A DNA stretch of 64,000 nt from Hyphomicrobiales bacterium (GTDB lineage: Bacteria; Pseudomonadota; Alphaproteobacteria; Rhizobiales; Methylopilaceae): contig JALHQA010000007.1 of the NCBI GenBank assembly GCA_022842205.1, forward strand, positions 124,001 through 188,000, read 5' to 3'. The translations under genes were made by a program, and so were the position numbers. This document shows positions 31,249 through 35,646 of this stretch, piece after piece (the stretch's first letter is position 1; every line of letters begins with the position of its first letter). The notes beneath the pieces were generated by a model, which was not told the origin of the DNA, searched no databases, and was given only the letters and a program-made list of their open reading frames with translations.

Positions 31249-32151
31249 ATGCGCGTTGTTGTCCTCCTGAATGCCCGCGCCGGAACGCTCAACACCGGCG
31301 CGGTGCAAAATCCCCGCGACATCGTCGCGGCCGCGTTCCGCGAGGCCGGTCACCAGGCGGAGGTCCATCTCGTCGAGCCGGACGAGATGGACTCACGCCT
31401 GGAAGAGGCGGCGGCGTCCGATGCGGAGGCCATCGTGGTCGGCGGCGGCGACGGCACGTTCAGCCACGCGCTGTCGAAGCTCGCGGACAGCGGCAAGGCC
31501 CTCGGCCTCATTCCGCTCGGAACGGTGAATCTGATGGGCCGCGACATGTATGCACAGGCCGGCAATGTGCAGGCGGGCGATCTGGCGGCGACGGCGGCGG
31601 CGCTGGCGCAGGGAGAGGTCAGGAAAATCGATCTCGCCACGATCAATGGCCGCCCGTTCCACACGCTGTGCGGCCTCGGCTATTTCGCGCGCGTCGCCAG
31701 GGAACGCGAGGAAACGCGCTATGATTTTCCGGGCGGACGCGCGGTCAGCGTCGCCGTCTCGATCTGGAAGTCCGTGACCAAGGCCGGCCGCACGCGGCTT
31801 ACCATCCGGGCCGGCGACCGCACGATCTCGACGCGCGCCTATGCCGTGCTCGTCACCTCGAACCGGATCGGCGAGGACTGGCGGCGCCAGCGCCTCGATG
31901 AAGGCGTGCTCGAACTCCACCTGATGCGCGCCGCGCATTTTGCCGGCCGCGCCAAAGCGGGGTTCGAACTTCTGTCCGGACGCTGGCGCGAGGGGGAGGC
32001 CATAGAGAGCATGGCCGCCGACACGATCGAAATCGCATCGAGCCGTCCGCGCCTCTGGGTCGCGGTCGACGGCGAGCTTCGCCGCGAGGAGATGCCGCTG
32101 CGCTTTGCCGTCGAACGGGCGAAAGTGCCCGTGCTCCTGCCGCGCGCGTAA
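31249..32151 (+). CDS. diacylglycerol kinase-catalytic domain protein
   Basis: The 300-residue protein has the DAGK/LCB-kinase catalytic fold: VVVLLNARAGTLN, the nucleotide-binding VVGGGDGTFSHALS and the second signature GLIPLGTVNLMGRDM. The usual GTGNDFAR is thus replaced by GTVNLMGRDM. Substrate may be diacylglycerol, phytosphingosine-like or other lipids. It follows the RluA gene by 22 bases and abuts the convergent kinase gene stop-to-stop inside a 16-base palindrome. Confidence 0.88.
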   Translation: MRVVVLLNARAGTLNTGAVQNPRDIVAAAFREAGHQAEVHLVEPDEMDSRLEEAAASDAEAIVVGGGDGTFSHALSKLADSGKALGLIPLGTVNLMGRDMYAQAGNVQAGDLAATAAALAQGEVRKIDLATINGRPFHTLCGLGYFARVAREREETRYDFPGGRAVSVAVSIWKSVTKAGRTRLTIRAGDRTISTRAYAVLVTSNRIGEDWRRQRLDEGVLELHLMRAAHFAGRAKAGFELLSGRWREGEAIESMAADTIEIASSRPRLWVAVDGELRREEMPLRFAVERAKVPVLLPRA

Positions 32152-33843
32152 TTACGCGCCAAGCTCCACCCGGCCGGGATGGGCGGTGGCGGCGCCCTGC
32201 AGCGGGATGGCGATCAGCGCGACGTCGTCGGACGGATAGGCGAGCGAGGCTCCTATCTGGCTGCGATAGGCGTGGACCAGGCGCGCGGCCAGCCCGGTCG
32301 CCGGCTGGGCATCGGCGATGCTGCGGCTTTCGATCTCGATGTCGAGCACCCCGGGCTCGCTGCGGCGGGCCAGAATGGTGATCGGGTGGTCGGCGGCATC
32401 GGCGCGCTCGAGCACCGGGGTGATCAGTTCCGAAACGAGAAGCCCGAGCGGCACCGCCTGATCGAGGTCGAGCCAGATCGGTTCTTCCGGCCCTTCCACC
32501 TTGATGGGCGGTGCCCCCATGCCGAAGCTCTGGCGGAGCTGGCTGACGATGTCGCGCATGAGATCGATGGTCGAGACATGGCCGATCTCGCCCGTCGCGT
32601 AGCTTGCCTTGTAGGCCGCCGCCATCGCCAGCACCCTGTCTTCCGGCACGCGCAGCAGCATGCGCAGCCGCTGCGGCAGTTCGCGCCGCTGCAGCGCCAG
32701 CAGGCTTGCGATCATCTGGAAATTGTTCTTCACGCGATGATGCAGTTCGCGCAGGAGCGCGTTCTTGCCGGCCAGCGCTTCCTCCAGCGCCGTCGAGCGC
32801 TCCTGTACATGCTGCGCCATGTCGTTGATGGCGGCGCCAAGATCGGACAGTTCGGCCGGAGCGGCTTCCAGCATGGCGATGCGCGGAGCATAATCGCCAC
32901 GCGCATAGGATGCGGAGACCTGACGGAAACGGGCGATCCAGCGCAGGACGAGCCGGTCGATGCCGGCAAAGATCGCGAGAATGCCGAGCAGCAGCATCAG
33001 CAGCGGCGCGCCCAAAGCGAGAAGAAACCGCATCCAGTCGGTGGCCTGGATCGCCGACATCGGCGTTGCAAGGACGACGCTCGACAGCGTGCCGCGCACC
33101 GGCGCGACCGCGTAGAGAAAAGGAAGACCGGCGCGCGTCGGCAGTGCCAGGCCGACCCCCGGTTCGTCCACCGCCCTCGTCGGCAGCACTTCGGCGGGAC
33201 GCCAGTCCTGGCCTTCGCGGCCGCCGATGAACTCCGAAACAACGACGCCGCCGGAGCGGATCAGCGCAAGCGCGCCGATTTCCTTGCTGTCAGGGTCGTT
33301 CGGCAGAAAGATCGCGTCGAATACATCGCGCCGCAAAAGCAGGCCGATGGCGCGCCGTTCGGTCGGCGTGTCGAACGCCCGCGAGATAAGAACGATGTCG
33401 TCGGTGCGTGGAATCTGCTCGGGAAGGAACACCGTGTCGCCGACATCCTCGGTATTGCGGATGGCGCGCAGAAGCGCCGAGCGGCTTTCGGTAGAGACAT
33501 CGGTGTTTCCATAGGAACACAGAACGCCGCCATCCGGCCCCGAGACGATGATGCCGGTATATTCGGGACGAAGCTGCAGCGTCGACCGCAGGTGATCCGT
33601 GCAGTTCGGGCCGGCCGAGGCGACCTCGGGATTGGCGCCAAGCGTATCGGCGACGCCCTCGGCGATACCGAGCGTCAGGCCGGCGCGCATGGCGATCAGT
33701 TCCGCGCGCTGGACGAGCGCGAATTCCCGCTGGGTCGTTTCGGCGTCGCGCCCCTTGATCGTCGCGCCGATGGCAAGCGCCGCCGCGGGCAGGTTCGCCA
33801 GAACCAGCAGAAGCGCGAGGCGGCTTCTCAGACTGCTCCGCAC
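32152..33843 (-). CDS. HWE/HisKA_2 histidine-kinase-like protein with degenerate ATP-binding domain
   Basis: The 563-residue protein has a membrane segment at residues 8-28, a periplasmic sensor region of about 240 residues, a second membrane segment near 274-296, a HAMP-like linker, and a HisKA_2 domain with phosphoacceptor His368 in LLRELHHRVKNNFQ. The ATP-binding part is abnormal. The N-box reads SELITPVLERA, with Pro476 where Asn is expected, and no DxGxG box follows (residues 501-523 read DIEIESRSIADAQPATGLAA). It is the third gene of nepR-ecfG-kinase and probably acts on PhyR, but kinase activity is doubtful. Confidence 0.85.
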   Translation of the reverse strand: MRSSLRSRLALLLVLANLPAAALAIGATIKGRDAETTQREFALVQRAELIAMRAGLTLGIAEGVADTLGANPEVASAGPNCTDHLRSTLQLRPEYTGIIVSGPDGGVLCSYGNTDVSTESRSALLRAIRNTEDVGDTVFLPEQIPRTDDIVLISRAFDTPTERRAIGLLLRRDVFDAIFLPNDPDSKEIGALALIRSGGVVVSEFIGGREGQDWRPAEVLPTRAVDEPGVGLALPTRAGLPFLYAVAPVRGTLSSVVLATPMSAIQATDWMRFLLALGAPLLMLLLGILAIFAGIDRLVLRWIARFRQVSASYARGDYAPRIAMLEAAPAELSDLGAAINDMAQHVQERSTALEEALAGKNALLRELHHRVKNNFQMIASLLALQRRELPQRLRMLLRVPEDRVLAMAAAYKASYATGEIGHVSTIDLMRDIVSQLRQSFGMGAPPIKVEGPEEPIWLDLDQAVPLGLLVSELITPVLERADAADHPITILARRSEPGVLDIEIESRSIADAQPATGLAARLVHAYRSQIGASLAYPSDDVALIAIPLQGAATAHPGRVELGA

Positions 33844-33865: not shown

Positions 33866-34435
33866 TCAGCGCGAGGCTCCCCCGGTCGTTATCATTGCCG
33901 CCTGCAGGTCGGCGTCCGGCCCGAACTCGGACGATGTCTGTACGGAAAGGTTCCGCGTCAGCGCGCTGCGCGCGCGATTGACCCGGCTCTTGATGGTACC
34001 GACCGCCACGCCGCAGATATCGGCCGCCTCCTCATAGGAAAAACCCGACGCGCCGACAAGGATGAGGGCTTCGCGCTGATCGGACGGGAGCTTGGAGAGC
34101 GCGGCGCGGAAGTCCTGCAGGTCCATATGACCCGCCTGCGACGGGTGCACCACAAGGCGCGCGGAGAACATGCCGTCGGCGTCCTGCACCTCGCGGCGTC
34201 TTTTGCGGTGTTCGGAGTAATAGACATTGCGCAGGATGGTGAACATCCAGGCGCGCATATTGGTGCCCTCGGTGAACGAGCCGAGATTGGACCACGCCTT
34301 GACGAGCGCCTCCTGAACGAGGTCGTCGGCCTTGTCCATCTGACCGCAGAGCGACACCGCGAAAGCACGCAAGGACGGAATCTGCTCCAGCAGTTCTTCC
34401 TTGACCGACTTGCTGGCTTCGGAGCGTGACGTCAT
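33866..34435 (-). CDS. ecfG: EcfG-type ECF sigma factor
   Basis: This is the alternative sigma factor of the alphaproteobacterial general stress response. The 189-residue protein has region 2 (ADDLVQEALVKAW, RAWMFTILRNVYYSEHRKRRRE) and region 4 (ALSKLPSDQREALILVGASGFSYEEAADICGVAVGTIKSR), and no region 1.1 or 3. NepR holds it inactive until phosphorylated PhyR displaces NepR. The start overlaps the nepR stop as ATGA. An exact EcfG promoter lies upstream of nepR, so the pair is autoregulated. Confidence 0.97.
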   Translation of the reverse strand: MTSRSEASKSVKEELLEQIPSLRAFAVSLCGQMDKADDLVQEALVKAWSNLGSFTEGTNMRAWMFTILRNVYYSEHRKRRREVQDADGMFSARLVVHPSQAGHMDLQDFRAALSKLPSDQREALILVGASGFSYEEAADICGVAVGTIKSRVNRARSALTRNLSVQTSSEFGPDADLQAAMITTGGASR

Positions 34436-34677
34436 TTACCGCCGCCTTCCGCTTCCGGCTTGTCTTCCTTGCTTTCAAGCTGCTTGAGCAGATCGAGAAA
34501 GCGGTCCGGCACATCCTGGCCGAGAATGTCGTCGTAGGAGGCCTTGAGATGGCGGCCGATATGCGCCTGCAGCTCGGAATCGATTTCCGGACTGCCGCCC
34601 CGCCCCTGACTGTGGTCTTGCACCGACTGATCCTTACCTGTGTGCTGCGGCGGCTTGCCTGGCCGTTCCTGCATCAT
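34432..34677 (-). CDS. nepR: anti-sigma factor NepR
   Basis: The 81-residue NepR has the conserved helical core EIDSELQAHIGRHLKASYDDILGQDVPDRFLDLLKQLE, interrupted here only by the usual loop, and a Gly/Pro-rich flexible N-terminal tail. It binds EcfG regions 2 and 4, or the PhyR sigma-like domain. The start is ATG 34677 (with a second ATG at 34674); an AGGGGG site precedes it. It is translationally coupled to ecfG and divergent from phyR. Confidence 0.95.
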   Translation of the reverse strand: MMQERPGKPPQHTGKDQSVQDHSQGRGGSPEIDSELQAHIGRHLKASYDDILGQDVPDRFLDLLKQLESKEDKPEAEGGGK

Positions 34678-34732: not shown

Positions 34733-34757
34733 AACGCGTGCTCTGTCAGATTGTTCC
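34733..34757 (-). promoter_or_regulatory. EcfG-dependent promoter of nepR-ecfG
   Basis: On the minus strand, GGAAC (34757-34753), exactly 16 bases, then CGTT (34736-34733) match the EcfG consensus GGAAC-N16/17-CGTT. The expected transcription start is near 34727, giving an untranslated leader of about 50 bases before nepR. This implies positive autoregulation. Confidence 0.9.
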
Positions 34758-34842: not shown

Positions 34843-35646
34843 ATGCAAATCGCGCCCATTATCGCGGCACAGTTGCCGTTTCTGCGCCGCTACGCCCGCG
34901 CCCTGACCGGCAGCCAGCACTCCGGCGACACCTATGTCGCCGCGGCGCTGGAAACGCTGGTGGCCGATCCCAGCCTTTTTCCGACCGACATTGAGCCGCG
35001 CCTCGCCGTCTATGAAGTGTTCACCCGCATATGGTCGTCCATCCGGGTCAATCTGGAAGGCGCCGGAAGCGCCGCGGACACCGCGGCGACGCGGACGCTC
35101 GACGCGCTCCCGCCACGGTCGCGACAGGTATTTCTGCTCGTTTCGGTTGAGGGTTTCTCCACAGCGGATACCGCCCGCATCCTCGGCATCACCGAGGACG
35201 AGGTGACGGCGGCGATCGACGACACCGGCCGGGAGCTTGCGAGCCTCGTGGCGACCGATGTTCTCATCATCGAGGACGAGCCGATCATCGCCATGGATCT
35301 CGAGGCGCTGGTCGAGAGCCTCGGCCATCGGGTGTGCGGCGTCGCCCGCACCCAGAAAGAAGCGGTGGCGCTGGCGGCGAAGACCCAGCCGGGCCTGGTG
35401 CTCGCCGACATCCAGCTCGCCGACGGCTCCTCGGGCCTTGATGCCGTGAACGACATCCTGACCGAGTTCGATGTGCCGGTGATCTTCATCACCGCCTATC
35501 CCGAGCGGCTTCTGACCGGGGAGCGCCCCGAGCCGGTGTTCCTGATCTCGAAGCCGTTCCAGACGCAGACGGTGAAGGCGATCGTCAGCCAGGCGCTGTT
35601 CTTCGGCACCCGCGCCCGCAAGCGCCCGGCGGCCGCGGCCGTCTGA
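34843..35646 (+). CDS. phyR: anti-anti-sigma response regulator PhyR
   Basis: The 267-residue protein joins an N-terminal sigma-like domain (residues 1-130: LRRYARALTGSQHSGDTYV, LPPRSRQVFLLVSVEGFS) to a C-terminal receiver (residues 138-255). The receiver has acid pocket IIEDEP, phosphoacceptor Asp189 (LVLADIQLADGSSG), Thr217 and Lys237 (SKPF). Once phosphorylated, the sigma-like domain captures NepR. It is divergent from nepR-ecfG. The ATG follows GAGGGG; the open frame extends further upstream but only the 34843 start gives the conserved N-terminus. Confidence 0.96.
   Translation: MQIAPIIAAQLPFLRRYARALTGSQHSGDTYVAAALETLVADPSLFPTDIEPRLAVYEVFTRIWSSIRVNLEGAGSAADTAATRTLDALPPRSRQVFLLVSVEGFSTADTARILGITEDEVTAAIDDTGRELASLVATDVLIIEDEPIIAMDLEALVESLGHRVCGVARTQKEAVALAAKTQPGLVLADIQLADGSSGLDAVNDILTEFDVPVIFITAYPERLLTGERPEPVFLISKPFQTQTVKAIVSQALFFGTRARKRPAAAAV

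Follow-up and report, generated by a model that had tools for sequence, protein, structure and literature searches.

At the phyR-nepR-ecfG locus of this Hyphomicrobiales bacterium, a gene that looks like one for a sensor kinase encodes a membrane protein that retains the phosphoacceptor domain of a HisKA_2 kinase and a predicted ATPase fold, but has lost the residues of the ATP site. We think it likely that this protein is a histidine phosphotransferase of the PhyT/PhyK type, derived from a HisKA_2 kinase, that would relay phosphate to PhyR. Because this reading draws its strength from published results on PhyT and PhyK, the protein fits an existing explanation and is best seen as a clear instance of something already known, not as a new system. 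Gene order, motif loss, fold prediction and candidate partners are established in the present analysis. Three points are new: how widely the loss is fixed among relatives, that it apparently happened separately elsewhere as well, and that parts and tails of the dead ATPase domain have been conserved.

Coordinates refer to the window, the whole stretch of 64,000 nucleotides that was analysed (Table 1). The first-pass annotation had placed the gene third in a nepR-ecfG-kinase unit, and reading frame, strand, coordinates and order all agree: nepR and ecfG overlap by four bases, and a 22-base gap follows before the gene itself. GTG stands at the matching start position in four relatives (L010, L039, L040 and L041), and NepR has one match in the whole genome (2.78 Mb, 96.7% complete). 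A convergent gene resembling DAGK_cat lipid kinases (31249-32151, plus strand) ends directly against the stop codon of the phyT-like gene (32152-32154). The sequence GGAAC-N16-CGTT, which we take to be the consensus of EcfG-type promoters, is also present in the other three members of the genus, 857-885 bases upstream of the kinase frame (L010, L039 and L041, the last identical to L011 in this comparison). As a window-wide signal the pattern is weak, with 4 matches against 2.26 expected, and since it is not rare we make the promoter call only because it precedes nepR and is found again in relatives; a search of 1600 upstream bases gave no match at 8 of 15 named loci (L042-L044, L046, L047, L050, L052 and L053).

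Table 1. Features of the locus, with positions in the window
Feature	Position	Strand	Basis or remark
phyR, sigma-like and receiver domains	34843..35646	+	domain matches; divergent from the nepR-ecfG-kinase unit
EcfG-type promoter (putative), GGAAC-N16-CGTT	34733..34757	-	ahead of nepR
nepR, anti-sigma factor	34432..34677	-	PF18557, 58 bits
ecfG, sigma factor	33866..34435	-	domain matches
PhyT/PhyK-type membrane histidine phosphotransferase gene (putative)	32152..33843	-	563 aa, GTG start
Periplasmic sensor, residues 32-270, dCACHE-like in model	33034..33750	-	structure match
HAMP-like linker, residues 299-347	32803..32949	-	Pfam HAMP 21.2 bits, under the cut-off of 25
HisKA_2 dimerisation/phosphotransfer (DHp) domain, residues 366-439	32527..32748	-	Pfam 57.8 bits, cut-off 22.3
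Phosphoacceptor His369 of HRxxN (HRVKN)	32737..32739	-	alignment with EL346
Degenerate ATPase (CA) domain, residues 421-550, Bergerat fold	32194..32583	-	model; no ATP-site residues
Pro476 in place of the N-box Asn	32416..32418	-	alignments with EL346 and the genome's own kinases
Lost DxGxG box	32311..32328	-	alignment with the genome's own HisKA_2 kinase on C3
C-terminal tail HPGRVELGA	32155..32181	-	PGRV[ED][LF]G in 4/4 genus members aligned

The membrane and sensor parts reported at first pass are present: we read the membrane helices from sequence and model, and the modelled periplasmic region resembles the sensors of PctB (5lt9, Z 14.2 over 206 residues) and PctA (5t65, Z 14.1 over 208). 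The protein therefore combines a periplasmic sensor with an HRxxN-bearing DHp domain, as expected for the PhyT/PhyK type. It also matches the Pfam HWE_HK model at 24.1 bits, and no Pfam ATPase (HATPase) domain is matched at E<=1. Yet the ATP-binding domain is not missing as such: the first-pass view that ATP-binding residues are lacking stands for the residues, while the domain itself is retained in an AlphaFold2 model built from 19 sequences (mean pLDDT 80.8, pTM 0.46). There, residues 421-550 have pLDDT values of 82-93 by 10-residue block and match the Bergerat ATPase domains of many kinases at Z about 14, and the best solved match to residues 366-550 is EL346, the blue-light histidine kinase of Erythrobacter litoralis (4r39, 4r3a; Z 16.1, rmsd 4.2, 170 residues aligned). 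The CA-domain fold is thus predicted to survive the loss of the ATP site. EL346 resembles the protein in its DHp and CA structure and differs in having an N-box Asn, a DxGxG box and a light sensor, none of which the protein has. The NCBIfam model for PhyK (NF051872, an equivalog) matches residues 15-530 with an E of 5.7e-47, a full-length similarity that at 160.5 bits falls far below the curated cut-off of 750.

Alignment with a characterised kinase had been proposed as a check on the lost ATP site, and it bears the loss out. Against EL346 the N box aligns as VSEVLTNALQHA versus VSELITPVLERA, with Pro476 at the Asn position, as it also is in alignments with the genome's own kinases, and the D, G and G of the DxGxG box correspond to Ser506, Ser508 and Asp511. 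An intact N-box Asn or G box elsewhere in residues 460-525, which would have counted against this reading, was looked for and is not there; indeed, the 563-residue protein has no Asn beyond residue 374 and no D-x-G within residues 441-563. The phosphoacceptor region is intact, as had been claimed, but by the HRxxN pattern the residue itself is the second of the two His in ELHHRVKNN, His369, and His368 is its neighbour. Relative to an active HisKA_2/HWE kinase, then, the protein keeps the HRxxN phosphoacceptor domain and lacks both the N-box Asn and the DxGxG box. A degenerate ATPase domain is a feature of PhyT only; PhyK keeps a conserved CA domain, which this protein does not.

The loss is shared by the protein's relatives. 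EcfG- and NepR-like frames lie just upstream in all of loci L009-L028 (20 loci) and L039-L053 (15 named loci), two overlapping sets totalling 35 entries from which 31 relatives were read in alignment, and 0 of these 31 carry the N-box Asn or DxGxG, which answers the suggestion that orthologues beside ecfG be surveyed for the same loss. L011-L013 have the same DHp-CA sequences as L041, L039 and L040 and were dropped before alignment, and L137 and L139 repeat L049 and L051. Counted as distinct DHp-CA sequences, 0 of 30 relatives have the N-box Asn, and since the reading frame is also open, chance or sequencing error behind the motif loss can be ruled out. Four distinct proteins of the Methylopila group (L019/L044, L020/L046, L023/L052 and L026/L042) have an Asn immediately ahead of the N-box position (ELLNA) and are without DxGxG. 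Across the order, a profile search of 297 genomes found 27 places, all 27 without the N-box Asn, a count biased by a profile built from Asn-less degenerate proteins. Across the class, a search with a PhyK-based profile, biased in turn by that choice, found matches in 62 of 387 genomes; among the best 30 PhyK-like places, Asn is kept in 26 and Asn together with DxGxG in 24, with L085 and L088 lacking both motifs, L087 and L090 lacking Asn, and L072 and L086 lacking DxGxG only.

A quick maximum-likelihood tree, calculated with the motif columns removed and of moderate support and long branches (L089, L030, L031 and several near-duplicates are omitted), groups the protein with PhyK-like proteins, the majority of which are encoded next to EcfG or PhyR frames, and separates it from the genome's other kinases with support of 93; survey row L091 falls with those paralogues. 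On this tree one change suffices for the loss of both motifs and two for the loss of Asn, which one further lineage (L087 and L090) apparently lost independently. These two PhyK-like proteins (from genomes G361 and G294) are encoded next to a PhyR-like frame, have Ile in place of the N-box Asn and retain part of D-x-G, and perhaps represent a separate intermediate stage of loss.

Three roles had been suggested at first pass for such a protein: phosphatase, phosphotransfer acceptor, or dominant-negative brake on the stress response. Phosphotransfer, as acceptor and then donor, is the role best served by the published precedents. In S. melonis Fr1, the phyR locus encodes PhyT (formerly PhyP), a protein with HRxxN and an ATPase domain that has degenerated, which moves phosphate from SdrG to PhyR via its His (PMC5898713); the authors of that paper suspect a former kinase with a decayed catalytic domain. 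By this description our protein resembles PhyT in its membrane anchor, its place at the phyR locus, its HRxxN DHp domain, its degenerate ATPase domain and the presence of an SdrG-type regulator in the genome, and differs in its surroundings, with three other HWE/HisKA_2 kinases found here against seven Paks in S. melonis Fr1. The same paper calls PhyT-type regulators conserved among alphaproteobacteria and names Bab1_1673 (B. abortus), RpaI_4707 (R. palustris) and RsiC (S. meliloti) as general-stress proteins of the PhyP type, which makes them putative counterparts of our protein. In C. crescentus, according to a second account (PMC5964349), PhyK receives phosphate from MrrA and passes it on to PhyR, and G1/G2 box mutants (ATP-site glycines) complement while H371A does not, the behaviour of a phosphotransferase independent of ATP binding. 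The first-pass generalisation that phosphorylation of PhyR is the normal task of kinases in this family has to be qualified, since PhyK and PhyT bring it about without kinase activity of their own. Not every gene called phyK behaves in this way: the phyK product of Brucella ovis is predicted to be soluble, and earlier Brucella studies concluded that, in the conditions they used, phyK has no part in regulating the stress response (PMC12354254). In our literature search no paper combined Methylopila with the general stress response, and none dealt with close relatives of this gene, though PMC5898713 names the PhyP-type proteins given above.

These precedents also bear on the rival idea that the protein's main work is to remove phosphate from PhyR, as a phosphatase or a drain in which His369 would take the phosphate back and so switch the response off. 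Once a relative of kinases has lost its ATP site, dephosphorylation, transfer and binding are the only activities left to it. PhyP, moreover, was first proposed to be a PhyR phosphatase, and only strains with an impaired stress response yielded its knockout (PMC5898713). Yet an assay with labelled PhyR detected no phosphatase activity of PhyP/PhyT, even if the authors allow a switch in vivo (PMC5898713), and PhyK is needed for activation in C. crescentus (PMC5964349); we regard a mainly phosphatase role as unlikely.

Conservation within the protein speaks to a further possibility, that of a pure brake which sequesters PhyR at the membrane and carries no phosphate. The DHp domain is the best conserved of four regions compared, with a mean pairwise identity in our 19-row alignment (A1) of 79% against 38% for the CA domain; by the same measure, identities within the genus are 92% and 49%. 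This contrast is only moderately special, because paralogous kinases also keep DHp better than CA: two of them in the same genus show 79-95% for DHp and 55-68% for CA, where the same script gives 84-90% and 42-57% for our protein (rows of L098, a presumed orthologue that proved non-orthologous, were set aside in the paralogue comparison). The CA domain therefore appears to evolve only somewhat faster than that of the paralogues. Residues 366-382, comprising HRVKN and its flanks, are invariant in 19/19 rows of A1, and in a 50-row alignment (A2) His369 is invariant in every row and His368 nearly so. A pure binder would not obviously need such a region, and we judge the idea quite improbable, even with a CA shell kept without ATP residues and with PhyT, in unstressed cells, binding PhyR and holding it at the membrane (PMC5898713). 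The part of the brake proposal that this last observation favours, binding of PhyR before stress, is retained in the phosphotransferase reading below.

Two CA residues, Glu472 and Gln529, are invariant in 50/50 rows of A2, in intact and degenerate domains alike, and the CA domain seems for this reason to be kept for something other than ATP. Beyond the ATPase fold, tails like PGRVELGA end L039, L041 and L010, the genus type, and KPxIGM-like tails end proteins of the Methylopila group (L042-L048, L052 and L053). These C-terminal tails, modelled with low confidence, are a possible docking motif, and such lineage-specific tails may bind PhyR or the SdrG-like regulator. We tentatively extend this to a wider idea, one we would not bet on: that ecfG-linked PhyK in part of the order is an obligate ATP-free relay, its former ATPase domain kept as a docking or allosteric module. 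The sensor is less constant. Orthologues of the Methylopila/Hansschlegelia group (L042-L048, L050, L052 and L053), with frames of about 450-505 aa, are without roughly 100 of the sensor residues found here (A1 columns about 120-260), so the part that meets the stimulus has changed and the relay part has not.

A phosphotransferase would depend on other proteins for its phosphate, and the genome holds candidates. Our kinase survey covered the HWE/HisKA_2 families, of which a match of any type occurs in 30 of 61 related genomes (own included). Apart from the gene described here, three places match PF07536 or PF07568, and each has its N box intact: C4 encodes an HWE kinase, and C3 encodes both a HisKA_2 kinase that begins with a receiver-like region and a second HisKA_2 kinase of 240 residues, the N-terminal domains being named by eye. 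A 143-aa receiver-like protein and an apparently membrane-bound frame of 694 aa adjoin the receiver-HisKA_2 kinase, codirectional and almost touching (L093:3361-6931, genome C3:329360-332930, read by eye), possibly another signalling unit able to feed the stress relay. The C4 kinase belongs to the HWE subfamily (71 bits) and combines an intact N box with no canonical DxGxG, and absence of DxGxG is thus not decisive by itself; HWE kinases are active without a canonical DxGxG box. That our protein is itself catalytically active, either through a nucleotide site of unusual make-up or by pairing with an intact kinase in a heterodimer, is very hard to credit, for although its Bergerat fold is retained in the model and the C4 kinase shares the missing DxGxG, its N-box Asn is gone too, with none to replace it after residue 374, whereas the C4 kinase keeps its N box.

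The candidate donor is an SdrG-like single-domain regulator (C4:71574-71942). The exact PFxFATG pattern of SdrG/MrrA had 0 matches in the genome's DNA; a family search with structure comparison then found the regulator, whose best solved matches are 2lpm (1e-26) and SdrG itself (5ieb, 2.5e-19). It carries PFVFMSGYG where SdrG/MrrA have PFxFATG(G/Y), a variant kept as F[MV]SGYG in the other three genus members. Because FMSGY replaces FATG(G/Y), orthology with SdrG is probable and not proven, and the genome can be said to encode, as PhyT/PhyK systems do, an SdrG/MrrA-like single-domain regulator with a variant motif. A match to this regulator (E<=1e-8) occurs in 20/20 genomes with an ecfG-linked copy (own included) versus 14/41 others (Fisher p 2e-7, inflated by common ancestry, with some matches inside longer frames, as in G036).

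For the phosphotransferase that we favour, we propose the following model, in which every phosphotransfer step and the sequestration of PhyR are inferred from relatives. The protein would be unable to charge itself with ATP. Under stress, the SdrG-like regulator would be charged by at least one of the genome's three further HWE/HisKA_2 kinases, or else by a kinase from some other family. The regulator would pass the phosphate to His369, and His369 would pass it to the Asp of PhyR; PhyR would then capture NepR and free EcfG, and EcfG would use the GGAAC-N16-CGTT promoter to transcribe the operon that encodes it. In unstressed cells, PhyR that carries no phosphate is probably bound by the protein at the membrane and so shielded from the kinases, and the periplasmic dCACHE-like domain may tune this sequestration.

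For annotators the locus carries a warning, as the label "sensor histidine kinase" is unsuitable for such genes. For the biology of the stress response, it offers a small system in which a whole relay might be traced, since we found a single NepR, a single SdrG-like regulator and three further HWE/HisKA_2 kinases. The lineage amounts to a natural experiment in which the ATP motifs have gone but His369, a handful of further residues and the fold have stayed, a state of affairs that lends itself to domain swaps.
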